64,000 bases of DNA from Mesorhizobium sp. WSM2240 (GTDB taxonomy: Bacteria > Pseudomonadota > Alphaproteobacteria > Rhizobiales > Rhizobiaceae). The translations under genes and the position numbers were made by a program. Below the pieces are notes generated by a model. That model ran no database searches. It saw only the letters and a list, made by a program, of their open reading frames with translations, and was not told the origin of the DNA. The stretch is taken from contig NZ_CP159253.1 of NCBI RefSeq assembly GCF_040438645.1, positions 1,922,001-1,986,000 on the forward strand, given 5' to 3'. Positions 14,830 to 28,782 of this stretch are shown piece after piece; position 1 is the stretch's first letter; each line of letters starts with the position of its first letter.

Positions 14830-15093
14830 CTATTGGGCGCCGGTGCCTTCCAGATAGATGATGATGGCCGTCCGCTGTCCTGCATTTGGGACTGTCATCG
14901 ACGTGCCGGGCACCGTCTGGCGGGGCGCGGCAAGGAAGGCGCCGAGCGACTGAACGTCCCGGACGATGCCTGGATTCCGCATCGCGGCCGAATAGCGCGC
15001 GCCGTCAACGCTGCCAGCGGTGCGGCCGACGATGCCGGACAAATGCGGGCCGGCTCGGTTCTGGCTAGGGTCCATCGTGTGGCAGGCGCCGCC
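14830..15093 (-). pseudogene. Truncated class I cytochrome c
   Basis: On the minus strand the frame reads ACHTMDPSQNRAGPHLSG, then VGRTAGSVDGARYSAAMRN, PGTSM and a final IIIYLEGTGAQ before TAG. This is the body of a small soluble class I cytochrome c. The heme motif is damaged: the position of the first cysteine is a glycine codon (15091-15093), leaving GGACH. No signal peptide is readable upstream in frame. It lies 132 bases downstream of the sensor kinase gene on the same strand and could be a discarded electron carrier of the Sox-like system next to it. A functional protein is unlikely. Confidence 0.6.
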
Positions 15094-15225
15094 ACTCTGG
15101 CGAGCGTCGCGCGGAGAGCAGGACACACGGGGGAGGCTGTAAAAAGTCGGCGGCTCCGTTCGGTTCGACAAATGCGGCTTTCGGGTGCAGGCGGCACGGC
15201 TGCGCCCGGCTCAGCGGGTCGTGGA

Positions 15226-16707
15226 TCAGACCGGCAACGATCTCAGACCCGCGGGCTTCGAGGCTTCGGGGGCCGGCGCTGGTGCAATGTGCCTTGCCAT
15301 ATCGATCAGCGGCAGCCTGATGACGGCGCGCAGGCCCCCGTTCAGGTTCTCGAGCACGATGTCGCCGCCGTGATGACGGGCAATCGCCCGGGCGATCGAC
15401 AAGCCGAGCCCAACGCCCCCGGTCTCGCGATTGCGCGACTGCTCCAGGCGGAAGAAGGGGGCAAAGACCTGCTCCATATCGGCGGGCGGAATGCCCGGCC
15501 CTGAGTCCTCCACCATGATGTCCAGGCTGTCGGGCTTCCTGATCACGCTCACGGTCGCGCGCTCGCCGTAGCGGACGGCGTTCTCGACAAGATTTCGGAT
15601 GGCCCGGCGCAGGGAGTCCGGGCGGCAGCGATAGAGCACCTTGGGCTCGTCCATCACGGTGACGTTCTGGCCGAGCTCGGCGAGGTCGTCGCACAGGCTG
15701 CCGACTAGTGCGGAAAGATCAACCGTCCGCGTCGCCTCGACCGTGGCGTCCTCCCGCGCGTAGGCGAGCGCGGCTTCGGTCATCGTCTGGATCTCCTCGA
15801 TGGTCTTCAGCATCTTTTCCTGAAGATCGTGATCCTGGACGAACTCGGCGCGCAGCCTGAGCGATGTCAGCGGCGTGCGCAAATCGTGGCTGATCGCCGC
15901 CAGCATGCGCGTACGGTCCTCGACAAAGCGCTGCAGGCGCTCCTGCATGCGGTTGAACGCCTCGGCGGTCCGGCGGATATCGTCCGGCCCGGATTCCGGC
16001 AGCCGCGGCACGGTCTCACCGCGGCCGAACAGCTCGGCGGCGTTGGCAAGGCGGCGCAACGGTCGGGCGATCGCCCGCGCGCCGAAGATGGCGATGGCGG
16101 AAAGGATGACTGCGGTTAGCGCCAGCGATATCGCGGACTGCGACGTCCAGAAGGTGTTCGGCATTGCCTTGGCGAAGGCGGCGTTCAGCCAGGTGCCGTC
16201 CTCGAGGCGGACGGACAAGCCCATGCCATTGGGAGCCGCATCCATATAGAGGAACTTGGCCGGCCGCGAAAACGGCGCGCCATTTTGCGAAAGATCCAGC
16301 ATGCGCGGCGGCACCGAGGGGTCGGCGGTCTCGACCCCGGTCGAAGCCTGTCCGTTCATGTAACGGGCATATTTGGCGGCGATGCCGGGCAGGGGCTTGG
16401 CGAGCTGGGCGAATGCTTCCTTCTGCCAGGCGAGGGGATCGCTCGGTCCGTCGCTGGACGTCCAGAAGCGCGTGTAGGCCGTGCCGCTCACGTCCAGTAT
16501 GTCGGGCCGAAGGGACGGCGGCGTCGTCTCGAGCAAAAGGGCGAGCGAGGAGGTGCGGCTCACGAATTCGCCTTTTGCCGCCGCATGCAAAGCCTGGCCG
16601 CGTTCTCCCCATGAGATCAGGAAGGTGATCGCCTGCGAAAGGGCGAGCGCGAGCAGTACCAGCATAAGGAAGCGGGCCGCCAGGCTGCGTCTCCATATGA
16701 GCATCAT
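15226..16707 (-). CDS. Sensor histidine kinase
   Basis: A 493-residue membrane kinase. It has one membrane helix near residues 12-32, a periplasmic domain of about 140 residues, a second helix near 180-200 and a HAMP linker. The HisKA motif AISHDLRTPLTSLR follows. The ATP-binding domain has the N-box NLVENAVRYG, DSGPGI and GVGLGLS. The ATG at 16707 overlaps the stop of the regulator gene in an ATGA, so the pair is translated together. It probably senses a periplasmic signal and phosphorylates the regulator at 16704-17423. Position suggests control of the divergent molybdoenzyme/Sox operon. Confidence 0.9.
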   Translation of the reverse strand: MMLIWRRSLAARFLMLVLLALALSQAITFLISWGERGQALHAAAKGEFVSRTSSLALLLETTPPSLRPDILDVSGTAYTRFWTSSDGPSDPLAWQKEAFAQLAKPLPGIAAKYARYMNGQASTGVETADPSVPPRMLDLSQNGAPFSRPAKFLYMDAAPNGMGLSVRLEDGTWLNAAFAKAMPNTFWTSQSAISLALTAVILSAIAIFGARAIARPLRRLANAAELFGRGETVPRLPESGPDDIRRTAEAFNRMQERLQRFVEDRTRMLAAISHDLRTPLTSLRLRAEFVQDHDLQEKMLKTIEEIQTMTEAALAYAREDATVEATRTVDLSALVGSLCDDLAELGQNVTVMDEPKVLYRCRPDSLRRAIRNLVENAVRYGERATVSVIRKPDSLDIMVEDSGPGIPPADMEQVFAPFFRLEQSRNRETGGVGLGLSIARAIARHHGGDIVLENLNGGLRAVIRLPLIDMARHIAPAPAPEASKPAGLRSLPV

Positions 16708-17423
16708 GCCTGGCCCACCTCGGCCGTAAAGCAATAGCCGCCGCCCCAGTGCGTCTTGATCAGCACCGGATTGCGCGAATCGGCCTCGATCTTCTTGCGC
16801 AGCCGGCTCACCTGGTTGTCGATTGCGCGGTCGAAGCCGTCGGCGGTGCGCCCGGCGGTGAGATCGAGCAGTTGGTCGCGGCTGAGCACGATGCCGACAT
16901 GCTCGATGAAGGCGGTCAGCAGGCGGAACTCGGCCGTACTCAGCGCAACCGCTACGCCATCGAGGCCGACAAGCTCACGGCGACCGACGTTCAGCGTCCA
17001 CCGATCGAAGCGCAGTGCGCTCGACTTCAGCCGGCCGCGCTGTGGCGGCAGGCTGTTCACCCGCCTGAGGACGGCCTTGATGCGCGCCAGCAACTCGCGC
17101 GGGTTGAAGGGCTTGGTTAGGTAATCGTCGGCTCCGATCTCCAAGCCTACGATACGGTCGATCTCTTCGGCCATTGCGGTCAGAAAGATGATCGGAATGT
17201 CGCCGGTGCCGCGCACATGCCGACAGGCGGCCAATCCGTCCTCGCCCGGCATCATGATGTCGAGCACGATGAGGTCTGGCAGGCTGCGGTCGAGCAGCCG
17301 CTTGAGCGCCGCCGTGCTGTCGGCGACGCTGACGCGATAGCCCTGCTGGGTGAGGTACTTCCCCACCAGATCGCGAATGTCCCTGTGGTCGTCGACGACC
17401 GCGATGTGCTGTGCCGCTTCCAT
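16704..17423 (-). CDS. OmpR-family response regulator
   Basis: A 239-residue regulator. The receiver domain has the acidic pair DD at 11-12, the phosphorylation site Asp55 in VLDIMMPGEDG and the lysine of LTKPF. The C-terminal winged helix of OmpR type has ALSTAEFRLLTAF and DNQVSRLRKKIE. The ATG at 17423 (MEAAQHIAVV) is chosen; an upstream start in the same frame adds 12 residues not typical of receivers. It is divergent from the operon at 17735, and direct repeats in the shared intergenic region fit the tandem-site binding of this family. Confidence 0.92.
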   Translation of the reverse strand: MEAAQHIAVVDDHRDIRDLVGKYLTQQGYRVSVADSTAALKRLLDRSLPDLIVLDIMMPGEDGLAACRHVRGTGDIPIIFLTAMAEEIDRIVGLEIGADDYLTKPFNPRELLARIKAVLRRVNSLPPQRGRLKSSALRFDRWTLNVGRRELVGLDGVAVALSTAEFRLLTAFIEHVGIVLSRDQLLDLTAGRTADGFDRAIDNQVSRLRKKIEADSRNPVLIKTHWGGGYCFTAEVGQA

Positions 17424-17539
17424 GCAATGCTCCAGGCCCGCCGAATAGTCGGCCAGCACCGACGATATCCAGTCGGCGTCTACGGATGTTCACCTTCCGC
17501 GCCATGACGGCAATCTCGCGGCACTTCAACAAAGCGTGA

Positions 17540-17734: not shown

Positions 17735-18205
17735 ATGGCCAGACTGACCATCAACGGAACCTCACGGGATGTCGATGTCGATCCGGATACGCCGCTGCTG
17801 TGGGTGATCCGCGAGCAGATCGGGCTTACCGGGACGAAGTACGGTTGCGGCGTGGCCGCCTGCGGTGCCTGCACCGTCCACATAGACGGCGTTGCCACGC
17901 GCTCCTGCGTGCTTCCGGTGAGCGCGGTAGAGGTGAGCCAGCAAATCACCACGATCGAGGGGCTTTCGCCGGACAGTTCGCATCCGGTCCAGCAGGCCTG
18001 GCTGGCGCTCGACGTGCCGCAATGCGGCTATTGCCAAGCCGGCATGATCATGGCGGCGGCGGGCCTGCTGTCACAGAACCCGAATCCGTCCGACGAGGAC
18101 ATCAACGCCGAGATCACCAACATCTGCCGGTGCGGCACCTACAACCGGGTGCGCGCCGCCATCAAGCTGGCCGCCAATGGCGGCGAAGCCACACAGCGCG
18201 GTTGA
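17735..18205 (+). CDS. Molybdenum hydroxylase [2Fe-2S] subunit (IorA-like)
   Basis: A 156-residue iron-sulfur subunit of the xanthine-oxidase family. The N-terminal plant-type [2Fe-2S] domain has [15 protein letters not shown] and the later cysteine of TRSCVLP. The C-terminal helical [2Fe-2S] domain has [11 protein letters not shown] and [14 protein letters not shown]. It carries electrons from the Mo subunit encoded next. There is no signal peptide, so in this family it is exported with the Tat-bearing large subunit. It is the first gene of the operon; a GAAAGGAA ribosome site precedes it, and the next start lies 11 bases after the stop. Confidence 0.9.
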
Positions 18206-18216
18206 GGAGGATGGTC

Positions 18217-20391
18217 ATGAACGCGACAATCGTCATTTCGCGCCGCAGTTTCATCGTCAGCGCGGCCTCCACCGCCGGCGCCCTGTCGCTCGGCTTCAAT
18301 GTGCCTTTCCTCAAATCCGCGCTCGCGCAGGGTGCCGAGACCACGCCCGAGGTCAACGCCTGGGTGGTGATCCGGCCCGACGATACGGTGGTGATCCGCA
18401 TCGCCCGCTCCGAGATGGGGCAAGGGACGCTGACTGGCCTGGCGCAGCTCGTAGCCGAGGAGCTGAACTGCGACTGGTCGAAGGTCACGACTGAATATCC
18501 GTCGCCGGCCCAAAATCTCGCCCGTGACCGCGTTTGGGGTAATTTCTCCACAGGCGGCAGCCGCGGCATCCGCGAATCGCATGAATATGTGCGCATGGGC
18601 GGCGCGACCGCCCGCGAGATGCTGATAGCGGCCGCTGCCGCCGAATGGGGCGTGCCGGCCAGCGAATGCGCGGCGAACATGGGCATGGTCACGCATGCCG
18701 CGTCGGATCGTGCGGCCAGCTACGGTCAGCTGGCGGCGGCTGCCGCCCAGATGACGCCTCCGGCCAACGTCCAGCTCAAGGATCCGAAGGACTGGACCAT
18801 CGCGGGCAAGCCGCTGCCCCGGCTCGATACGGCCGACAAGCTCAATGGCTCCCAGGTCTACGGCATCGACCTGAAGCTGCCCGGCATGCTTAATGCGGTG
18901 GTCCGCGCCTGCCCGTATTTCGGCGGCAAGGTTGCGGGATTCGACGCCGCCGCGGTTGCCGACATGCCCGGTGTTCGAAACATCGTCCAGGTCGACGAGA
19001 CGGCCGTCGCCGTGGTCGCCGACACATGGTGGCAGGCGAAGACCGCGCTCGACGCGCTTCCAGTAACCTGGGACGAGGGTCCCAACCGGGAAGTGACGAG
19101 CGCTTCCATCGCCGCAATGCTCTCGGAAGGACTCGATGCCTCCGACGCCTTCATCGGGGCCGAGGCTGGCGACGCCCGCGCGGCGCTGTCGTCGGCGGCC
19201 CGCACGGTGACGGCGACCTACGCCTTCCCCTACCAGAACCACGCCACGATGGAGCCGATGAACGCCACGGCGCTCTACACGCCGGATCGCTGCGAGGTGT
19301 GGGTGCCGACACAGAACGGCGAGGCGAGCCTGGCCGCGGCTGCCGAGGCCGCAGGCCTGCCGGTGCAGCAATGCGAGGTGCACAAGATCCATCTCGGCGG
19401 CGGTTTTGGCCGGCGCGGCAATTTCCAGGACTATGTGCGCCAGGCCGTCGGCATCGCCAGGCAGATGCCGGGTACGCCGGTCAAGCTCATATGGTCGCGC
19501 GAGGAGGACATGCTGCACGGCGCCTACCATCCGACGACGCAATGCAAGCTGACCGGCGCGCTCGACGCGGACGGCAATCTGACCGCCCTGCACATGCGCA
19601 TATCCGGCCAGTCGATCCTGGCGTCGGTGCGGCCGGAAGGCATGCAGGGGGGCATGGATCCGGTGGTCTTCCAGGGCCTTGTCCTCAGCGGAACGGAAGG
19701 CACGCTGGGCTATACGGTGGACAACCTTTTGATCGACCACGCTATGCGCAATCCGCCGATCCCGCCGGGTTTCTGGCGCGGCGTCAATCTCAATCAGAAC
19801 GCCGTCTACATGGAATGTTTCATGGACGAGCTCGCCCATGCCGCAGGCCTGGACCCGCTCGCTTTCCGCCGCAAGCTGATGGCGAACAATCCCAAGCACC
19901 TCGCCGTGCTGGAGGCAGTGGCGGAGCGGATCGGCTGGGACACGCCGCCGGCGGCCGGCATCCATCGCGGCCTGGCGCAGATCATGGGCTTCGGCAGCTA
20001 TGTCGCGGCGGCGGCCGAGGTATCGGTCACCGACGGACAACTGAAAATCCACCGTATAATTGCCGCCACCGACCCCGGTCATATCGTCAACCCTGCGCAA
20101 ATTGAACGGCAGGTCGAAGGCTCCTTTGTCTACGGCCTCTCCGCCTGCCTCTACGGCGAATGCACGGTCAATGGCGGCCGCATGGAGCAGGAGAATTTTG
20201 ACAGCTACGAGGTTGTGCGCATGGCCGACATGCCGGCGGTGGAGACGATCATTATGCCGTCCGGCGGTTTTTGGGGTGGCGTCGGCGAGCCGACCATCGC
20301 GGTGGCGGCACCGGCAGTCCTCAACGCCATCTTCGCGGCCACCGGAAAACGCATCCGCACGCTGCCGCTGAAGAACCATGAGCTGGTGTGA
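18217..20391 (+). CDS. Periplasmic molybdenum hydroxylase large subunit (IorB-like)
   Basis: A 724-residue molybdopterin-binding subunit resembling isoquinoline 1-oxidoreductase/aldehyde dehydrogenase large chains. A Tat signal is present (SRRSFI at residues 9-14, then a hydrophobic stretch ending near SALAQG). Mo-binding loops include SEMGQGTLTGLAQL, GGGFGRRG and, late, GGFWGGVGEPT with the glutamate expected to act as general base. The ATG at 18217 fits the GAGGAGG ribosome site; an ATG at 18211 abuts it. The last 14 bases overlap the cytochrome gene. Relatives hydroxylate N-heterocycles or oxidise aldehydes and pass electrons to cytochrome c. Here the partners are Sox proteins, so the substrate is open. 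Confidence 0.88.
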   Translation: MNATIVISRRSFIVSAASTAGALSLGFNVPFLKSALAQGAETTPEVNAWVVIRPDDTVVIRIARSEMGQGTLTGLAQLVAEELNCDWSKVTTEYPSPAQNLARDRVWGNFSTGGSRGIRESHEYVRMGGATAREMLIAAAAAEWGVPASECAANMGMVTHAASDRAASYGQLAAAAAQMTPPANVQLKDPKDWTIAGKPLPRLDTADKLNGSQVYGIDLKLPGMLNAVVRACPYFGGKVAGFDAAAVADMPGVRNIVQVDETAVAVVADTWWQAKTALDALPVTWDEGPNREVTSASIAAMLSEGLDASDAFIGAEAGDARAALSSAARTVTATYAFPYQNHATMEPMNATALYTPDRCEVWVPTQNGEASLAAAAEAAGLPVQQCEVHKIHLGGGFGRRGNFQDYVRQAVGIARQMPGTPVKLIWSREEDMLHGAYHPTTQCKLTGALDADGNLTALHMRISGQSILASVRPEGMQGGMDPVVFQGLVLSGTEGTLGYTVDNLLIDHAMRNPPIPPGFWRGVNLNQNAVYMECFMDELAHAAGLDPLAFRRKLMANNPKHLAVLEAVAERIGWDTPPAAGIHRGLAQIMGFGSYVAAAAEVSVTDGQLKIHRIIAATDPGHIVNPAQIERQVEGSFVYGLSACLYGECTVNGGRMEQENFDSYEVVRMADMPAVETIIMPSGGFWGGVGEPTIAVAAPAVLNAIFAATGKRIRTLPLKNHELV

Positions 20392-20713
20392 TCTCACGAA
20401 GGGCAGGCGCGGACGATTTTCCGCGCCGGTCCTGCTTGCGGCGGTCGCGGCGAGCGCACCGGCTTTTGCCGGTGCGCCGCCCGGCGCGACGGCCTGCACC
20501 GGTTGCCACGGGCCGGCGGCTCTCGATACGGCGATACCGTCGCTCGACGCTCATGCGGCGGCCGACATCGTTGACCAGATGCAAGCGTTCCGGACCGGCC
20601 AGCGCGACGCTACGGTGATGGGCCGCATCGCAAAAGGATTTTCCGACGAAGAAACGCGCGCCATCGCCGAATGGCTCGCCCAACCGGAGGCAGCACGCCA
20701 TGCCGAGCCGTAG
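20378..20713 (+). CDS. Monoheme cytochrome c, FccA-like
   Basis: A 111-residue exported cytochrome with an N-terminal signal sequence (ending near PAFA), one heme motif CTGCH and a VMGRIAKGFSDEE segment with the likely axial methionine. The latter is typical of the cytochrome subunit of flavocytochrome c sulfide dehydrogenase. The gene overlaps the Mo subunit gene upstream and the flavoprotein gene downstream. It could be the electron acceptor of the flavoprotein, of the molybdoenzyme, or of both. That shared position makes it the probable hub of the operon. Confidence 0.85.
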   Translation: MSWCDLTKGRRGRFSAPVLLAAVAASAPAFAGAPPGATACTGCHGPAALDTAIPSLDAHAAADIVDQMQAFRTGQRDATVMGRIAKGFSDEETRAIAEWLAQPEAARHAEP

Positions 20714-21962
20714 AGCTGTCCTCGGCGTCGCTGCGGCCAGCGTCGCTGCGGCCGCGTTCCCCTTGCCGCAGCTGCGCGCACAGGCCCGACCCCGCGTGGT
20801 CGTGATCGGCGGCGGCTTTGCGGGGGCGAGCTGCGCCCGTGCACTGAAGCAGATGGACCGGGACCTGGCAGTGACACTGGTCGAACCGGAGGCGGCCTAT
20901 GTCGCCTGCCCATTCAGCAATACCGTCCTTGCCGGACTGCGCGGCATCGAAGCGCAGACGTTCGGCTATGACGGACTTGGCGACGTCGGACTCATCCGCA
21001 AGCGCGCAGTCGCAGTGGATGCTGAGCGCGGCCGCGTTCGTCTGAATGATGGCACGAACATCGACTATGCCCGGCTGGTGCTGGCGCCCGGCATCGAGCT
21101 CAACTTCGACGCGCTACCCGGCTATGACGCGGCCGCCGCGGAGATCATGCCGCATGCCTGGAAGGCAGGGCCGCAGACGCTGCTTCTGCGCGACCAGCTC
21201 GCGGCGATACAGGACGGCGGGACCGTCATCCTTTCGGCGCCGGCCAATCCGTTCCGCTGCCCGCCCGGGCCGTATGAGCGGGCGAGCCTGATCGCGCACT
21301 ACCTCAAAACCAGCAAGCCGCGCTCCAAGCTGATCATCCTCGATGCCAAGGACGCCTTCTCCAAGCAGCGGCTTTTCGAGGCGGCGTGGCAGGAGCTTTA
21401 CCCCGGCCTGATCGAATGGGTGCCGCTGTCCGCGGGCGGCCAGGTGACGGAAGTCGATGCGGCGACCAGGACGTTCGTGACCGAGTTCGGCAGCCACAAG
21501 GCCGATGTCGCCAGCGTCATCCCGCCGCAGCGGGCGGGCGCGATCGCGCAGGTCGCCGGCGTCGCCGATCAGACGGGCTGGTGCCCGATCGATCCGGTCA
21601 CCTTCGAGTCGCAGCTCCGGCCCGGCATCCATGTCATCGGCGACGCGGCGATCGGGGGGGCGATGCCTAAATCGGCCTTCAGCGCCAACGCCCAGGCGAA
21701 AGCCTGCGCGGCGGCGGTCGCGGCCCTCCTGCGCGAGCGGGAGCCGACCCAGCCGAAGCTCATCAACACCTGCTACAGTCTGGTGGCGCCGGACTACGGC
21801 ATCTCGATCGCCGGCGTCTACCAGCCACGCGACGGCTTGCTTGCTGAAGTCGAGGGCGCCGGCGGCACCAGCCCGCTCGACGCGGCCAAAGAAGTCCGTG
21901 AGCTCGAAGCCGCCTATGCCGAGGACTGGTTCCGGACGATCACCAGCGAAGTGTTCGGATGA
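20700..21962 (+). CDS. soxF: Flavocytochrome c flavoprotein subunit (SoxF/FccB)
   Basis: A 420-residue FAD protein with a Tat-type signal peptide (SRRAVLGVAAAS). The dinucleotide-binding motif VVVIGGGFAGASCARAL is followed by the redox-cysteine motif ACPFSN, a second cysteine region FRCPPGPYERA and a late IHVIGDAAIGGAMPKSAFSAN. These are features of FccB/SoxF, which oxidises sulfide in the periplasm and passes electrons to a cytochrome c. It overlaps the FccA-like gene by 14 bases and soxX by ATGA. In Sox operons SoxF stimulates the pathway by reactivating the carrier. It may do so here or act as a sulfide dehydrogenase in its own right. Confidence 0.9.
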   Translation: MPSRRAVLGVAAASVAAAAFPLPQLRAQARPRVVVIGGGFAGASCARALKQMDRDLAVTLVEPEAAYVACPFSNTVLAGLRGIEAQTFGYDGLGDVGLIRKRAVAVDAERGRVRLNDGTNIDYARLVLAPGIELNFDALPGYDAAAAEIMPHAWKAGPQTLLLRDQLAAIQDGGTVILSAPANPFRCPPGPYERASLIAHYLKTSKPRSKLIILDAKDAFSKQRLFEAAWQELYPGLIEWVPLSAGGQVTEVDAATRTFVTEFGSHKADVASVIPPQRAGAIAQVAGVADQTGWCPIDPVTFESQLRPGIHVIGDAAIGGAMPKSAFSANAQAKACAAAVAALLREREPTQPKLINTCYSLVAPDYGISIAGVYQPRDGLLAEVEGAGGTSPLDAAKEVRELEAAYAEDWFRTITSEVFG

Positions 21963-22411
21963 GCAGGATGGCAGGTCTTGCTCTGGCGATCACGATGCTC
22001 GCAGCCTCGCACTCTGTCGGCGAGGAAGCGGGACCCTATGTGGTGACCGGCGACGGGATTCTTCAGCCGCTCACCGGCGCAAAGGGCGAACCGGCGCGTG
22101 GAGCCGCGCTGATCACCGACCGGCAACGCAGTCTCTGCACGCTCTGCCACAGCGGCCCGTTCCCCGACCCGCATCTGCACGGCACGCTGGCGCCCAACTT
22201 CGCGGGCGTAGGCGCGCGGCTCTCCGAAGGCCAGATACGGTTGCGCGTCGTCGACATGAAGCGGCTGGTACCGAACACGATCATGCCGTCCTACTACCGG
22301 ATCGCCGACGAGGAGGGCCAGCGCGTCGCCGCCGGCTGGCGCGGCAAGCCGATCCTGTCGGGCACAGAGATCGAGGACATCGTCGCCTATCTGGCGACGC
22401 TGAAGGGGTGA
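21959..22411 (+). CDS. soxX: Sulfur-oxidation cytochrome SoxX
   Basis: A 150-residue exported monoheme cytochrome. It has a signal peptide, heme motif CTLCH and the SoxX signature: SGPFPDPHLHGTLAPNF, GARLSEGQIRLRVVDM and NTIMPSYYRI with the axial methionine. It forms the SoxXA complex with SoxA (23219-23998), which attaches a sulfur substrate to the SoxYZ carrier with release of electrons. The start overlaps the soxF stop by ATGA and soxY starts two bases after the stop. Confidence 0.93.
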   Translation: MSRMAGLALAITMLAASHSVGEEAGPYVVTGDGILQPLTGAKGEPARGAALITDRQRSLCTLCHSGPFPDPHLHGTLAPNFAGVGARLSEGQIRLRVVDMKRLVPNTIMPSYYRIADEEGQRVAAGWRGKPILSGTEIEDIVAYLATLKG

Positions 22412-22413
22412 GG

Positions 22414-22899
22414 ATGCACGATCTACGCCGAAGTCACGGTCTCTCGTTTCCTGTTCGACGGCGGCAGGTGCTGGCAGCCGGCATTGCCGGCCTTGTGGTG
22501 CTCAGCCTGCCGCGGCGGGCGCTCGCCCGGCCGAGTCTCGAAGAGGCTATCAACACTTTCACCGGCGGAGCCGAGGTGCTGGAAGGCCGCGTCCGGCTGG
22601 AGCTGCCGCCGCTGGTCGAGAACGGCAATGCCGTCGGGATCACGGTCACCGCCCAAAGCCCGATGACCGCGGCCGACCATGTGCGGCGCATCGGCGTCTT
22701 CAACGAGAAGAACCCGGAGGCGAGTGTCGCCGTCTTCCGTCTCGGCCCGCGCTCCGGGCGCGCAGAAGTCTCGACGCGCATCCGGCTGGCGACCTCGCAG
22801 GTCGTCGTCGCCGTCGCCGAGATGAGCGACGGCAGCTTCTGGTCCAGCCGGGCGAGCGCCATCGTCACGCTGGCCGCCTGCATCGAGGATCTTTCGTGA
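22414..22899 (+). CDS. soxY: Sulfur carrier SoxY with unusual C-terminus
   Basis: A 161-residue SoxY with a Tat signal (VRRRQVLAAGIAGLVVL). The carrier fold starts at SLEEAINTFTGGAEVLEGRV and includes LPPLVENGNAVGITVTAQSP. The carrier cysteine is present, but the C-terminus reads TLAACIEDLS. The canonical GGCGG end is replaced by a cysteine sixth from the end with an acidic tail. SoxY with SoxZ carries the sulfur substrate on this cysteine between Sox enzymes. The stop overlaps the soxZ start in a TGATG. The altered arm may reflect different partner enzymes, as SoxB and SoxCD are not encoded here. Confidence 0.9.
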   Translation: MHDLRRSHGLSFPVRRRQVLAAGIAGLVVLSLPRRALARPSLEEAINTFTGGAEVLEGRVRLELPPLVENGNAVGITVTAQSPMTAADHVRRIGVFNEKNPEASVAVFRLGPRSGRAEVSTRIRLATSQVVVAVAEMSDGSFWSSRASAIVTLAACIEDLS

Positions 22900-23219
22900 T
22901 GGCGCGTGCACTCATTAACGTGCCGGAGACGGCCAGGCGCGGCGAGATCGTCCAGGTCAGGGCGATGATCGCCCATCCGATGGAAACCGGCTACCGCATG
23001 GGCACGAACGGCGCAAACATCCCGCGCGACATCATCCGCCGCTTTATCTGCGCCTATGACGGCGAGGAGGTGTTTTCCGCTGAGCTCTTTCCGGCGGTGT
23101 CGGCGAATCCCTTTATCGCCTTCACGCTTGTCGCCACGACGAGCGGCACCATTACCTTCGCCTGGACGGACGACGCCGGCGAGACGCAGACTGCGTCGGC
23201 CGAGATCGCGGTGAGTTGA
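22899..23219 (+). CDS. soxZ: Sulfur carrier partner SoxZ
   Basis: A 106-residue immunoglobulin-like SoxZ. It has the N-terminal ALINVPETARRGEIVQVRAMI, HPMETGYR, and FICAYDGEEVFSAELFPAVSANPF, then FTLVATTSGTITFAWTDD. It has no signal and is exported as the SoxYZ dimer by the SoxY Tat signal. The ATG at 22899 overlaps the soxY stop (TGATG), and its own stop overlaps the soxA start the same way. Confidence 0.93.
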   Translation: MARALINVPETARRGEIVQVRAMIAHPMETGYRMGTNGANIPRDIIRRFICAYDGEEVFSAELFPAVSANPFIAFTLVATTSGTITFAWTDDAGETQTASAEIAVS

Positions 23220-23998
23220 TGCGCGCCCTGCGGGGCTTTGCGGGTATGGCCGCTGCCTTGATCTGCAGCGTGGTCGCCGCTGCCGAAATCGAAGATGGGG
23301 ACAGGCGATCCGGCTTCGACTTCATGACGCCGGAGACACAGGCGCTGCAGGCCGACGACATAGCCAATCCAGGCATGCTGTGGGTGCTGCAGGGCGAGCA
23401 GCTCTGGCGACAGGCTGACGGCCGAGTGAGCATTGCCTGCTCCCGCTGTCATGGGGATGCGGCTCAGTCGATGCGCGGCGTCGCCGCCCGCTACCCCGCC
23501 TTCGACGAGGCGACAGGGAGGCCGATCGACCTTGCCGGACGCATCAATTCCTGCCGTGCCTCAAGGCAACAGGGCGAGCCACTGGCGTCGGAGTCGGACG
23601 AGCTGCTGGCTCTCACCACCTACGTCGCGCACCAGTCGCGCGGCATGCCGGTGACGCCGGCAGCCGACCCGCGGCTCACCCCGTTTCGCGACAATGGACG
23701 GCGCCTGTTCCAGGCTCGCATCGGCCAGATCGACCTCTCCTGCGCTTCCTGCCACGACGACAACTGGGGCAAGCGGCTGGGCGGCGCCGTCATTCCGCAG
23801 GCACATCCGAACGGCTACCCGCTCTACCGGCTGGAGTGGCAGGCGGTCGGCACGCTTCAGCGGCGGCTGCGCAACTGCATGATCGGGGTGAGGGCGGAGC
23901 CGTTCGCCTTCGGCTCGGCCGAATTCGTCGACCTGGAGCTTTACCTGATGGAGCGGGCGCGCGGACTGCCGATCGAAGCGCCGGCCGTGCGGCCGTGA
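23219..23998 (+). CDS. soxA: Diheme sulfur-oxidation cytochrome SoxA
   Basis: A 259-residue exported diheme cytochrome with a signal peptide ending near VVAAAE. It has SGFDFMTPETQALQADD, a first heme motif CSRCH and a second, CASCH. The SoxA active-site cysteine is in RLRNCMIGVRAEPF, with the expected R(x)EP context. With SoxX it conjugates thiosulfate or a related sulfur compound to SoxY. It is the last gene of the operon. The genes that usually follow (soxB, soxC, soxD) are absent downstream, where a gene-poor stretch begins. Confidence 0.93.
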   Translation: MRALRGFAGMAAALICSVVAAAEIEDGDRRSGFDFMTPETQALQADDIANPGMLWVLQGEQLWRQADGRVSIACSRCHGDAAQSMRGVAARYPAFDEATGRPIDLAGRINSCRASRQQGEPLASESDELLALTTYVAHQSRGMPVTPAADPRLTPFRDNGRRLFQARIGQIDLSCASCHDDNWGKRLGGAVIPQAHPNGYPLYRLEWQAVGTLQRRLRNCMIGVRAEPFAFGSAEFVDLELYLMERARGLPIEAPAVRP

Positions 23999-25629: not shown

Positions 25630-25680
25630 CCGTTCCAGTTTGGAACGGCTCTAAAAGATATTTCTTGATAGGTGAAGTCA
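25630..25680. promoter_or_regulatory. Operator-like palindrome and possible RirA (IRO) box
   Basis: CCGTTCC at 25630-25636 pairs with GGAACGG at 25642-25648 around five bases, a perfect symmetric element. Just downstream, TGA at 25666-25668 and TCA at 25678-25680 are separated by exactly nine bases, which is the TGA-N9-TCA pattern of the rhizobial iron-responsive box. Both lie in the short divergent promoter of the methyltransferase and the metallophore importer. Iron control is therefore plausible. The motif is short enough to occur by chance. Confidence 0.45.
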
Positions 25681-25725
25681 TCTTTTATAAGCCGCCTCTG
25701 GCAATCCACTTCAAGAGAGGGCGCG

Positions 25726-26865
25726 ATGAATTTCCGAAGGTTGGCAGCAGTTACGATGGCGGCCGCCATCGTCGGCCTGTTGATGACGCTGGCCGCAAGG
25801 GCCGAAATGGTCACAGTGACTGACATCACGGGCCGCCAGGTCGAGGTGAACGTCCCGGTCGAGAGGGTAATCCTGGGTGAAGGCCGGCAAGTCTATCTCG
25901 TCGCGGCGCTCGACACCGAGGATCCGTTCAAGCGCATTGTCGGCTGGCGCGAGGACTTCAGCCAAGCGGATCCGGACAATTACGCTGCCTATCTCGAAAA
26001 ATTCCCCGGGGTGGCGAAAATCCCCACTTTCGGCGGTTTCAAGGACGGCACCTTCGACGTCGAGCAGGCGGTCTCGCTTAAGCCCGACGTCATCCTGATG
26101 AACATCGAATCGAAGCAGGCCACCGAAGACGCCAAATACATTGAGAAGCTCGCCGCCGCCGGCATTCCGTTGGTCTATGTCGATTTCCGGGAGCGCCCCT
26201 TCACCAACACGGAACCCAGCATGCGTCTGTTCGGCAACCTGTTCGGCAAGGAGGAGCGCGCCGAGGAGTTCATCGCCTGGCGGGCCGCCGAGATCGCGCG
26301 CGTTACCGACATCATCGAGAAGGCCAATCCTGAGAGGCCCAAGGTCTTCATCGAGCGCGCCGGCGGATACTCGGAAGATTGCTGCATGAGCTTCGGCGAC
26401 GACAATTTCGGCAAGTTCGTCGAGATGGCGGGTGGCGACAACATCGCCAAGAACATCATTCCCGGCACATTCGGCACGCTCAATCCCGAACAGATTATCG
26501 CCTCGAACCCGGATCAGATCATCGTCACCGGCGGCTGGTGGGAAGCCTATGTGCCGGGCGGCGCTTGGGTCGGCGTTGGCCCCGGCCGCGACGAGGACGA
26601 GGCGCTGCGTAAGCTGAAGGCGCTCACTGAGCGGCCGGCGCTGACAGGCGTGAAGGCCGTCGAGAACAACCAGGTCCACGCCATCTGGCATCAGTTCTAC
26701 AACAGCCCCTATCAGTTCGTCGCGATCCAGCAGATGGCGAAGTGGCTGCATCCGGAACTCTTCGCCGACCTCGACTCAGATTCGACCTTCAGGGAGTTGC
26801 ATGAGCGCTTCCTGCCCGTCGCCTACAGGCCCGGCCACTGGGTCTCGCTGACCGATGTCGACTGA
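25726..26865 (+). CDS. ABC importer binding protein, iron-complex/B12 type
   Basis: A 379-residue periplasmic binding protein. The signal peptide is MNFRRLAAVTMAAAIVGLL, with cleavage near AARAE. A helical-backbone binding fold follows: DITGRQVEVNVPVERVILG, LKPDVILMN, AGIPLVYVDFR, NPEQIIASNPDQIIVTGG and HAIWHQFYNSPYQ. The ATG at 25726 has an AGAGAGG ribosome site; an upstream in-frame start lacks one. It delivers a metal chelate or cobalamin-like ligand to the permease encoded next, overlapping it by 11 bases. No TonB receptor lies nearby, so outer-membrane entry must be encoded elsewhere. Confidence 0.9.
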   Translation: MNFRRLAAVTMAAAIVGLLMTLAARAEMVTVTDITGRQVEVNVPVERVILGEGRQVYLVAALDTEDPFKRIVGWREDFSQADPDNYAAYLEKFPGVAKIPTFGGFKDGTFDVEQAVSLKPDVILMNIESKQATEDAKYIEKLAAAGIPLVYVDFRERPFTNTEPSMRLFGNLFGKEERAEEFIAWRAAEIARVTDIIEKANPERPKVFIERAGGYSEDCCMSFGDDNFGKFVEMAGGDNIAKNIIPGTFGTLNPEQIIASNPDQIIVTGGWWEAYVPGGAWVGVGPGRDEDEALRKLKALTERPALTGVKAVENNQVHAIWHQFYNSPYQFVAIQQMAKWLHPELFADLDSDSTFRELHERFLPVAYRPGHWVSLTDVD

Positions 26866-27934
26866 TACGAGGGCCGTCGGCGCCACAATCGGCCGCACCG
26901 AGGGACAAGGGCGTTACCGCGCCCTCGTCTGGCGGCGGCAGCTCATTCTCTTTGGCCTCGCCGTCGCCTTGCTCTTCAGCCTCTGCGTCGACCTTGCGAT
27001 TGGTCCTGCCCGCTACGGACTCGGTGAGGTCGTGCGGGCGCTTCTTGTTCCCGAGACGGTGCCGCAGCAGGTGCGCGTCGTGCTCTGGGAAATCCGCATG
27101 CCGGTGGCGTTGATGGCCATCGTCGTTGGGGCGTCGCTCGCCGTGGCTGGCGCGCAGATGCAAACGATCCTCAACAATCCGCTGGCGAGCCCCTTCACGC
27201 TCGGCATATCAGCCGCCGCGAGTTTCGGCGCAGCACTTGCCCTGGCCTTCGGAGTAAGGCTTATCCCCGCCGCGGTCGGATATGTCGTGCCGGTCAACGC
27301 CTTCGTCATGGCGATGCTCGCCGCGTTCCTCATTCACATGCTGAGCGTCAAGCGTGGCGTCAACGTGGAAACCATCGTTCTGCTCGGCATCGCGCTGGTC
27401 TTCACCTTCAATGCACTGCTCGCGCTGGTCCAGTTTTTCGCGTCGGCGGAAGCGCTGGCGGCGGTCGTCTTCTGGACCATGGGCAGCCTCACCAAGGCCA
27501 CCTGGCCCAAGCTTGCAGTCACCACATTTATTCTCCTCGCGGTCCTCCCCATCTTGGCGCGGCGCGCCTGGGCGCTAACCGCGCTGCGGCTTGGTGAGGA
27601 CAAGGCGGCCAGCTTCGGCGTCAAGGTTGGCCGCCTGCGGCTCGAGACGCTGATTCTGGTGAGTCTTCTCGCCGCCATTCCCGTCGCCTTTGTCGGCACC
27701 ATAGGTTTTATTGGCCTTGTCGGCCCGCACATTGCTCGGATGGTCATCGGCGAGGACCAGCGTTTCTTCCTGCCGGCCTCGGCCTTGTCGGGTGCGCTCA
27801 TCCTGTCAGCCAGTTCGGTCGTCAGCAAGGCGCTCATCCCGGGCACCGTCTTCCCGATTGGCATCGTCACCTCGCTCATCGGCATCCCGTTCTTCATCTC
27901 ACTCATCCTGTCCAGCACGAGGCGCTCATGGTGA
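26855..27934 (+). CDS. FecCD-family ABC permease
   Basis: A 359-residue inner-membrane permease with about ten hydrophobic segments. FecCD-family landmarks are LWEIRMPVALMAIVVGASLAVAG, QTILNNPLASPFTLGISAAAS and LLGIALVFTFNALLAL. GTIGFIGLVGPHIARM, the ATPase-coupling region, and PIGIVTSLIGIPFFISLIL also fit. It probably forms a homodimer with two copies of the ATPase at 27928, whose start overlaps this stop by seven bases. Confidence 0.92.
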   Translation: MSTDTRAVGATIGRTEGQGRYRALVWRRQLILFGLAVALLFSLCVDLAIGPARYGLGEVVRALLVPETVPQQVRVVLWEIRMPVALMAIVVGASLAVAGAQMQTILNNPLASPFTLGISAAASFGAALALAFGVRLIPAAVGYVVPVNAFVMAMLAAFLIHMLSVKRGVNVETIVLLGIALVFTFNALLALVQFFASAEALAAVVFWTMGSLTKATWPKLAVTTFILLAVLPILARRAWALTALRLGEDKAASFGVKVGRLRLETLILVSLLAAIPVAFVGTIGFIGLVGPHIARMVIGEDQRFFLPASALSGALILSASSVVSKALIPGTVFPIGIVTSLIGIPFFISLILSSTRRSW

Positions 27935-28782
27935 CGATCCGGCTCGAGGCGCTCGGCGCGCGCTACGGCAAGAGCCTCCGGCTTCGGGATGTGACGACGC
28001 CTGCGTTCAAGGGCGGGGACATCGTGGCCGTGATCGGTCCGAACGCCGCCGGCAAGTCGACGCTCTTCCGGCGCATCGCCGGCCTTCTGCACGGACCGGG
28101 AGCCGTGCATGTCGAAGGCGCGTCCCGAGGGAAGAACGGCATCTGCTACATGCCGCAGGACACATCCGCCAACGCGGTGCTCACCGTCTATGAGTCAGTG
28201 TTGCTCGCCCGTAAGCAGGGAATGGGCTGGTCTGTAGGCGACGACGATCTGGCTCGCATAGACGAGACCCTTGCCGCGCTCGGCATCTCCGATATCGCCT
28301 TCCGGAACATCGGCGAGCTTTCCGGCGGCCAGCGGCAACTCGCCAGCCTGGCACAGACGCTGGTGCGGGAGCCGGAGATCCTGTTGATGGACGAGCCAAC
28401 ATCAGCACTCGATCTGTCGCGGCAGGTGGAAGTGCTCGGCCTCATGCGGGAACTTGCCCGGATACGAGGCATGGTCGTGCTGATCGCCCTGCACGACCTC
28501 AATCACACCCTGCGCTTTAGTGATCAGACCATGGTCATCGCGGACGGCCGACTGGTCGCCTGCGGGTCATCGCCGGAGGTCATCACATCCGATCTGCTGC
28601 GGGATGTTTATCGCGTCAATGCGCGCATCGAGCCGTGCTCCCGCGGCATCGGCCATGTTATTGTGGATGGCGTGGCGGATGGGGCGTCGGACGGTTATTA
28701 TGTCGGCAGCGGGAACCGCGTCGCGGATGCCGGAGAGATCAGGAGCGGCAGCAGTTCCGGCCGCATGACCGCAACCGCCTAA
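27928..28782 (+). CDS. ABC ATPase, iron-complex importer
   Basis: A 284-residue ATPase with Walker A GPNAAGKST, Q-loop YMPQD, signature LSGGQRQLASLAQTL, Walker B ILLMDEPTSALD and an H-loop LIALHDLNHT. It completes the binding-protein/permease/ATPase set for uptake of a metal chelate or cobalamin-type compound. The C-terminal 40 residues are glycine- and serine-rich and not part of the usual domain. Confidence 0.92.
   Translation: MVTIRLEALGARYGKSLRLRDVTTPAFKGGDIVAVIGPNAAGKSTLFRRIAGLLHGPGAVHVEGASRGKNGICYMPQDTSANAVLTVYESVLLARKQGMGWSVGDDDLARIDETLAALGISDIAFRNIGELSGGQRQLASLAQTLVREPEILLMDEPTSALDLSRQVEVLGLMRELARIRGMVVLIALHDLNHTLRFSDQTMVIADGRLVACGSSPEVITSDLLRDVYRVNARIEPCSRGIGHVIVDGVADGASDGYYVGSGNRVADAGEIRSGSSSGRMTATA

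Follow-up and report, generated by a model that had tools for sequence, protein, structure and literature searches.

The locus and its genes

The operon described here lies in a 64-kb stretch (the window; 64,000 nucleotides of contig NZ_CP159253.1) of the genome of Mesorhizobium sp. WSM2240. It comprises eight open reading frames (ORFs) on the + strand, at positions 17735–23998 in the ORF list of the window, which encode the two subunits of a molybdenum (Mo) enzyme, an FccAB-type cytochrome and flavoprotein, and the Sox proteins SoxX, SoxY, SoxZ and SoxA (Table 1). The junctions between consecutive genes are, in order, +11, -14, -14, -4, +2, -4 and -4 bases. Protein families were assigned by Pfam and NCBIfam profile scans of the window proteins, and these bear out the eight tightly packed genes, with the same families, of the original prediction, which had been made from the sequence alone. 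That prediction also called the sox and Mo genes fused; they do share an operon, but there is no gene fusion.

Table 1. Genes of the sox/Mo operon and of the divergent two-component system (positions in the window).
Product	Position	Strand	Features
[2Fe-2S] small subunit of Mo hydroxylase (IorA-like)	17735..18205	+	156 aa; Fer2 + Fer2_2, two 2Fe-2S domains
Mo large subunit (MoL), xanthine oxidase family	18217..20391	+	724 aa; MoCoBD_1 + MoCoBD_2; Tat-type RR signal
One-heme cytochrome c (FccA-like)	20378..20713	+	111 aa; Pfam Cytochrom_C 24.1 bits (cut-off 21.3)
FccB/SoxF flavocytochrome c sulfide dehydrogenase flavoprotein	20700..21962	+	420 aa; FCSD_central 163.5 bits, FCSD-flav_bind 93.7 bits
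SoxX cytochrome c	21959..22411	+	150 aa; TIGR04485 63.6 bits (cut-off 61)
SoxY-related AACIE arm carrier	22414..22899	+	161 aa; PF13501; TIGR04487 203.5 bits (cut-off 172); arm Cys156
SoxZ	22896..23219	+	107 aa; TIGR04490 93.7 bits (cut-off 76)
SoxA	23216..23998	+	260 aa; TIGR04484 232 bits (cut-off 110); two CXXCH, active-site Cys221, Arg217; true start may be the next ATG, 23219
OmpR-type response regulator, divergent	16704..17459	-	Response_reg + Trans_reg_C
Sensor histidine kinase, partner of the response regulator	15226..16734	-	HAMP, HisKA, HATPase_c

The large (MoL) and small subunits constitute a predicted periplasmic Mo hydroxylase of the xanthine oxidase (XO) family, with MoCoBD domains, two [2Fe-2S] domains, an RR start and, by the family motif, a glutamate as the putative base. 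The structure model of MoL (all models are of single chains) has a fold like that of a Mo aldehyde dehydrogenase, the nearest being the membrane-bound enzyme of Gluconobacter oxydans (8gy3), from which the window operon differs by its SoxXA and one-heme cytochrome; the structure comparison yielded a fold and no pointer to the substrate. FccB contains the domains of flavocytochrome c sulfide dehydrogenase together with what is presumably the redox cysteine pair. Apart from the two-heme SoxA, Pfam revealed no multi-heme cytochrome among the ORFs of the operon.

The window SoxY belongs to TIGR04487, the SoxY-related AACIE arm proteins, a point absent from the original prediction; the family name covers SoxY alone and gives neither function nor partner. 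Against the true-SoxY model the protein scores 99.5 bits, under the cut-off of 125. The C-terminal end reads LAACIEDLS where canonical SoxY has GGCGG, and the arm LAACIED is unchanged in 24 aligned relatives. The structure model resembles SoxY from P. pantotrophus (2ox5), with a predicted local distance difference test (pLDDT) score below 50 for the arm from residue 157 onwards. Compared with the canonical thiosulfate Sox system, the operon shares the key residues of SoxXA and SoxYZ, namely the active-site and arm cysteines, but lacks SoxB, SoxC and a GGCGG arm, and its Mo enzyme is from another family. The quinoprotein dehydrogenase-associated SoxYZ system (TIGR04557) is similar in pairing a periplasmic dehydrogenase with a neighbouring SoxYZ-like carrier; however, that system has a fused SoxYZ and a PQQ enzyme, whereas the window has a Mo enzyme and separate SoxY and SoxZ, which score 55.9 and 48.7 bits against TIGR04557 (cut-off 140).

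The absence of SoxB and SoxC noted by the original prediction extends from the window to the whole genome (4 contigs, rated 100% complete), while SoxD was not searched for. Profile searches gave nothing above the 550-bit cut-off of the SoxB model (TIGR04486) anywhere in the genome, and no match to the SoxC model (TIGR04555) at an E-value of 0.001, which rules out a soxB or soxC locus elsewhere. Two weak matches to the SoxB model (117.5 and 52.8 bits) look, by eye, like 5'-nucleotidases; sub-cut-off matches also occur in 10 of 14 control genomes for SoxB, E. coli included, and in 7 of 14 for SoxC. Besides the window pair, SoxY and SoxZ occur only once more in the genome, as a SoxYZ fusion located 1.2 kb before a PQQ dehydrogenase. 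This second locus (L005, 9433–14436, at about 2.66 Mb on contig C1) encodes an MBL-fold protein, the SoxYZ fusion and the PQQ dehydrogenase, and is a quinoprotein-type SoxYZ system; its position near the dehydrogenase rules out that the second SoxYZ works with a Sox system hidden elsewhere.

Conservation of the operon

Carrier-related contig stretches were found in 201 cases, partly with the pattern VTLAACIE, and the best 80 were analysed; because the search used the arm pattern, the invariance of the arm in these 80 loci, including its cysteine (80/80), is partly by choice. In tblastn searches with the eight window proteins, SoxY and SoxZ were located in all 80, SoxA and SoxX in 79 each, MoL in 77, the small subunit in 73, FccB in 57 and the cytochrome in 53. 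Wherever MoL, the small subunit, SoxX or SoxA is missing, the contig ends at that place, and MoL is present in all 77 loci with a sufficiently long contig (3 of the 80 are cut). FccB lies within the operon in 52 loci and alongside it in 5, and 26 of the 77 Mo-bearing loci have no FccB between the Mo gene and SoxX. The core is therefore the Mo pair with SoxXYZA, and FccAB is an optional part of the operon.

According to the record titles, these loci include ones from Alphaproteobacteria (Mesorhizobium, Ancylobacter, Xanthobacter, Azospirillum), Betaproteobacteria (Polaromonas, Massilia, Noviherbaspirillum) and Gammaproteobacteria (Steroidobacter, Luteimonas). The gene order is conserved among loci of the three classes, which rules out a chance neighbourhood of Mo and sox genes; the order Mo enzyme, FccAB, SoxXYZA, for which the original prediction had suggested looking, does recur in other genomes, with FccAB optional. 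The operon is also present in one locus titled Mycobacterium sp. KBS0706 (L041); its identities are similar to the alphaproteobacterial ones, and the label may be wrong.

Residues expected of functional proteins are retained throughout these loci. In SoxA, the heme Cys/His residues and the heme-1 Cys ligand are present in 78 of 78 sequences, and both the active Cys221 and Arg217, four residues before it, in 77 of 78 with one gap; across the class survey described below, this arginine is found in 28 of 30 Mo-adjacent SoxA (Met in the other two) and in 24 of 24 SoxB-adjacent ones. TsdA, a thiosulfate enzyme, likewise has Arg119 four residues ahead of Cys123 according to the available passages of PMC4423706. 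Since the SoxA cysteine and the TsdA-like arginine are kept, SoxXA can still be expected to load an anionic sulfur compound. The heme motif and Met ligand of SoxX (79/79), the eight cysteines of the small subunit (73/73), Glu691 and Arg521 of MoL (76/76) and the cysteine pair of FccB (56/56 for one, 54 plus two gaps of 56 for the other) are equally conserved. Of the 79 host genomes, many of them drafts or metagenome-assembled genomes, 28 have a SoxB above cut-off (10 of 49 in one set, 18 of 30 in the other), and the remaining 51 are without it.

An operon of this type is already known, contrary to its presentation as unknown in the original prediction. In Starkeya novella, since renamed Ancylobacter novellus, a second sox cluster (Snov_1975–1982) was noted in 2013 to contain an XO-family Mo enzyme (PMC3797975). 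As described in the passages available from that paper, it resembles the window operon in having XO-family Mo genes, a flavocytochrome c pair and SoxX, Y, Z and A without SoxB or SoxCD, and, by gene numbers, in the same block order, a likeness that comes from the description and not from sequence. Among Ancylobacter-titled loci, the carrier is found in eight and the operon in all seven with sufficient contig. The S. novella cluster was barely expressed on glucose, methanol and thiosulfate, thiosulfate caused no rise, and its authors regarded it as either functionless or serving other conditions (PMC3797975, same passages). The arm motif, the spread of the operon and the partner rule described below do not appear in those passages. 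Elsewhere, SoxY has been sorted into four clades with six arm signatures (PMC11237559), in the available passages of which neither an AACIE arm nor a Mo partner is mentioned, and for SAR324 a SoxYZ has been noted together with flavocytochrome c but without other sox genes (PMC4782131). The passages available from PMC2864759, PMC10100899, PMC12997753 and PMC5336275 contain nothing on this operon. In the open-licence literature, PMC3797975 is the sole description of the operon found, and no paper found states the arm/partner rule; the rule, the wide conservation and the optional nature of FccAB appear to be new.

Arm type, partner enzyme and surrounding genes

A search of 385 alphaproteobacterial genomes with TIGR04487 gave 129 places, and 97 SoxY loci were examined, leaving out 31 short fusion-like matches and one missed place (G087:C178). 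A SoxY was counted as beside SoxB when within 8 kb; 16 of the 97 loci were covered over less than 8 kb, and for 12 of these Mo adjacency was taken from coordinates. SoxB-adjacent SoxY (38/97) has the arm GGCGG in every case (38/38). Mo-adjacent SoxY (37/97) has an alanine directly before the cysteine in 36 cases and SGCI in one, the alanine arms being AACIE, AACVE, AACTE, AACLE, AACID, GACIE, GACVE, SACLD, PACAE, GACS, GACGG and others; in the main group of these proteins, position +2 from the cysteine is occupied by Asp or Glu in 28 of the 31 Mo-adjacent arms. No SoxY among the 97 was seen to adjoin both SoxB and a Mo pair, 13 of the 37 Mo-adjacent loci being covered over less than 8 kb. Thirteen glycine arms have neither partner, at least three of them (L174, L177, L170) at loci cut on one side. 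Nine alanine arms have no adjacent Mo pair: two lie at contig ends (L094, L240), two are in genomes with MoL at another locus (L239 in G091 and L234 in G127), and five are GACS arms. Among the GACS loci, L187, L188, L189 and L227 encode SoxXYZA, three of them with FccB, and have no Mo pair or SoxB in reach.

The arm/partner prediction was written down before 60 stretches, covering a part of the other-class places listed, were fetched, and it held. Among 62 SoxY, all four alanine arms are Mo-adjacent and none of the 58 glycine arms is; SoxB-adjacent SoxY again has GGCGG (14/14). The four alanine arms come from one genus with genomes of 1.7–2.1 Mb. Taking both surveys together, SoxB is found beside none of the 41 Mo-adjacent SoxY (37 + 4; 13 covered over less than 8 kb only), and in a genome bearing both kinds of carrier the two lie apart, at L272 and L324. 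Of the 62 SoxY, 32 have FccB but lack both SoxB and a Mo pair; a further kind of SoxY, at L278, L282–L284, L286–L288, L293, L294 and others, is FccB-adjacent in this way and has an arm that is mostly xGGCAG or xGGCVG.

With the arm columns left out of the alignment, the SoxY tree requires four changes of arm type and three changes of partner between Mo and SoxB; its bootstrap had not settled. Alanine arms fall into a main group of 35 rows (31 Mo-adjacent) and a distant second group of 10 rows, of which five, the SGCI row among them, are Mo-adjacent; L198 forms a long branch by itself. A Fisher value for the arm rule was set aside, the rows being related. The variation of the SoxY arm in step with its partner supports a Mo enzyme that acts on SoxYZ-bound cargo.

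The association was also followed from the Mo enzyme, by searching the same 385 genomes for MoL with two candidates scored per genome. Of 31 homologues with at least 60% identity, the window's included, 23 adjoin SoxY, three (G093, G071, G147) belong to operons split over contigs, and five have no SoxY alongside. More distant Mo pairs (37–50% identity) also adjoin alanine-arm SoxYZ, at L153, L154, L156, L157 and L158. In L157 (2356–13690), a single cluster contains two tandem Mo pairs, a SoxYZ with a long tail after its GACVED arm, FccAB, SoxXA and, judged by eye, a formylglycine-enzyme-like protein.

The divergent OmpR-type regulator likely governs the sox/Mo operon; a similar response regulator lies within 5.5 kb of 36 of the 80 related operons, and a similar histidine kinase is found at 38. 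As clues to the substrate, neighbouring genes are weak: they are mixed, and only the two-component system is common. In a group of Roseomonas-type loci (L057, L058, L061, L068, L076 and their kin), the operon is preceded by genes for an NMT1/THI5-type transporter, an amidase and a deacetylase and followed by one for a TauE/SafE protein. In the window, a cytochrome c gene remnant at 14833–15111 (-), of a kind that sits upstream in 23 of the 80 loci, has a heme motif without its first cysteine and a match that stops short of the signal peptide, and looks like a pseudogene. Downstream, genes for a Peripla_BP_2 binding protein, a permease and an ATPase at 25672–28782 (+) look like an iron/B12-type ABC transporter.

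Proposed pathway and alternatives

We propose, with slightly better than even confidence, that the operon encodes a Sox-like, SoxB-independent periplasmic pathway in which the Mo enzyme processes SoxY-bound cargo. The two Mo subunits would be exported jointly by Tat. SoxXA would load SoxY by oxidative coupling of an anionic sulfur compound to the tip residue Cys156, on an arm that is mostly xAC[hydrophobic or T][D/E], not GGCGG, and that would be fitted to an XO-family Mo hydroxylase instead of SoxB/SoxCD. XO-family enzymes hydroxylate carbon, whereas sulfite-oxidase-family enzymes oxidise sulfur. Hydroxylation of the carrier-bound cargo would thus most likely take place at the carbon next to sulfur; the organic part would depart as an aldehyde or acid, leaving a persulfide on SoxY. 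FccAB, where present, would oxidise the freed sulfide or persulfide, and all electrons would be passed to periplasmic cytochrome c. The loading and carrying steps are suggested by intact protein families, and the Mo step by the arm/partner link together with the shared operon. On this sequence evidence the Mo enzyme likely acts on SoxYZ; that the cargo is an organosulfur compound and the chemistry C-hydroxylation is a guess, by analogy, that is more probably wrong than right.

Several observations weigh against this pathway. We know of no XO-family enzyme that acts on a protein-bound substrate. The arm/Mo link amounts to two or three lineages, for which an independent-pairs sign test is unable to reach significance. 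The five GACS-arm loci have SoxYZ (four also SoxXA) and no nearby Mo pair, and one SGC arm adjoins a Mo pair, so that an alanine arm as a strict rule is ruled out. From the side of the enzyme, 5 of the 28 resolvable close MoL homologues have no SoxY alongside. Two of these genomes (G091, G127) have SoxXYZA with an alanine arm and MoL at separate loci, and two (G370, G292) have solo Mo pairs at 61–62% identity without adjacent SoxYZ, along with another alanine-arm SoxYZ that has its own Mo pair. The most serious objection to a strict carrier model comes from the fifth, G066 (single contig, rated 100% complete): it has the Mo pair, SoxX and SoxA and no SoxY match, and the control gave no match, though the model found the SoxY of the window genome. 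In the tree G066 is nested inside the SoxYZ-bearing clade, and SoxYZ was therefore probably lost there. These five genomes rule out that the Mo genes never occur without SoxYZ. In addition, SoxYZ2 and SoxAX2 of S. novella went undetected in proteomes, according to the passages available from PMC3797975.

The retention of Mo and SoxXA without SoxY in G066 would fit an electron-transfer partnership: a free aldehyde or N-heterocycle would be the substrate of the Mo enzyme, the electrons would pass to SoxXA and the small cytochrome, and SoxYZ and FccAB would have a side task such as dealing with sulfide or thiol stress. The aldehyde dehydrogenase fold nearest to MoL, the lack of a multi-heme cytochrome besides SoxA, and the transporter, amidase and deacetylase genes upstream in some relatives point the same way. 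We nevertheless consider this unlikely, since the loading Cys and Arg of SoxA and the arm Cys of SoxY are kept, although superfluous for plain electron transfer, and the arm varies in step with the Mo enzyme. Somewhat less likely still is that the Mo enzyme replaces SoxCD/SoxB and oxidises the sulfane sulfur of inorganic cargo, derived from thiosulfate or sulfide, on SoxY to the sulfonate level. The TsdA-like arginine of SoxA and the presence of FccB, part of a sulfide oxidoreductase, inside 52 of 80 operons would suit such a role; it sits poorly with the carbon chemistry of the XO family, with an operon that has no hydrolase for sulfate release, and with the lack of induction by thiosulfate reported in the S. 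novella passages (PMC3797975).

A redundant or cryptic duplicate without function, as considered by the S. novella authors, would fit the very low expression of that cluster on all three substrates (PMC3797975). This is highly improbable: core catalytic residues are unchanged, alignment gaps apart, in 73–80 loci of three classes, the operon is retained in the four genomes of only 1.7–2.1 Mb, and 51 of 79 host genomes have no above-cut-off SoxB with which it could be redundant.

The carrier-bound pathway is thus the reading retained. The original suggestion of a Mo enzyme acting on a SoxYZ-bound or organosulfur substrate gains support from the presence of MoL in 77 of 77 loci and from the arm/partner link; contact with SoxYZ and the organosulfur cargo are parts that we continue to infer. 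A soxBCD locus elsewhere, with Mo genes independent of sox genes in all relatives, would have told against that suggestion; instead, SoxB and SoxC are absent genome-wide, the Mo genes accompany the carrier in all 77 loci and the arm is in step with its partner. The earlier observation is right, and more general than the window alone could show. More broadly, and as a tentative proposal that falls somewhat short of even probability, there may be two kinds of SoxYZ, a SoxB-type with GGCGG and a Mo-type with alanine before the cysteine. The latter would serve a second, SoxB-free pathway for carrier-bound sulfur, with an XO-family Mo hydroxylase that acts on the arm-held substrate and probably strips the carbon from an organosulfur compound.

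Such a division would matter because thiosulfate oxidisers are recognised in genomes by their sox genes. Should the alanine-arm type act differently, soxXYZA without soxB ought not to be taken for a defective Sox pathway, and an unassigned sulfur route would be present in many bacteria. By predicting the partner, the arm motif makes the cargo range of SoxYZ directly testable and, if the proposal is true, XO-family Mo enzymes would gain a protein-bound substrate.

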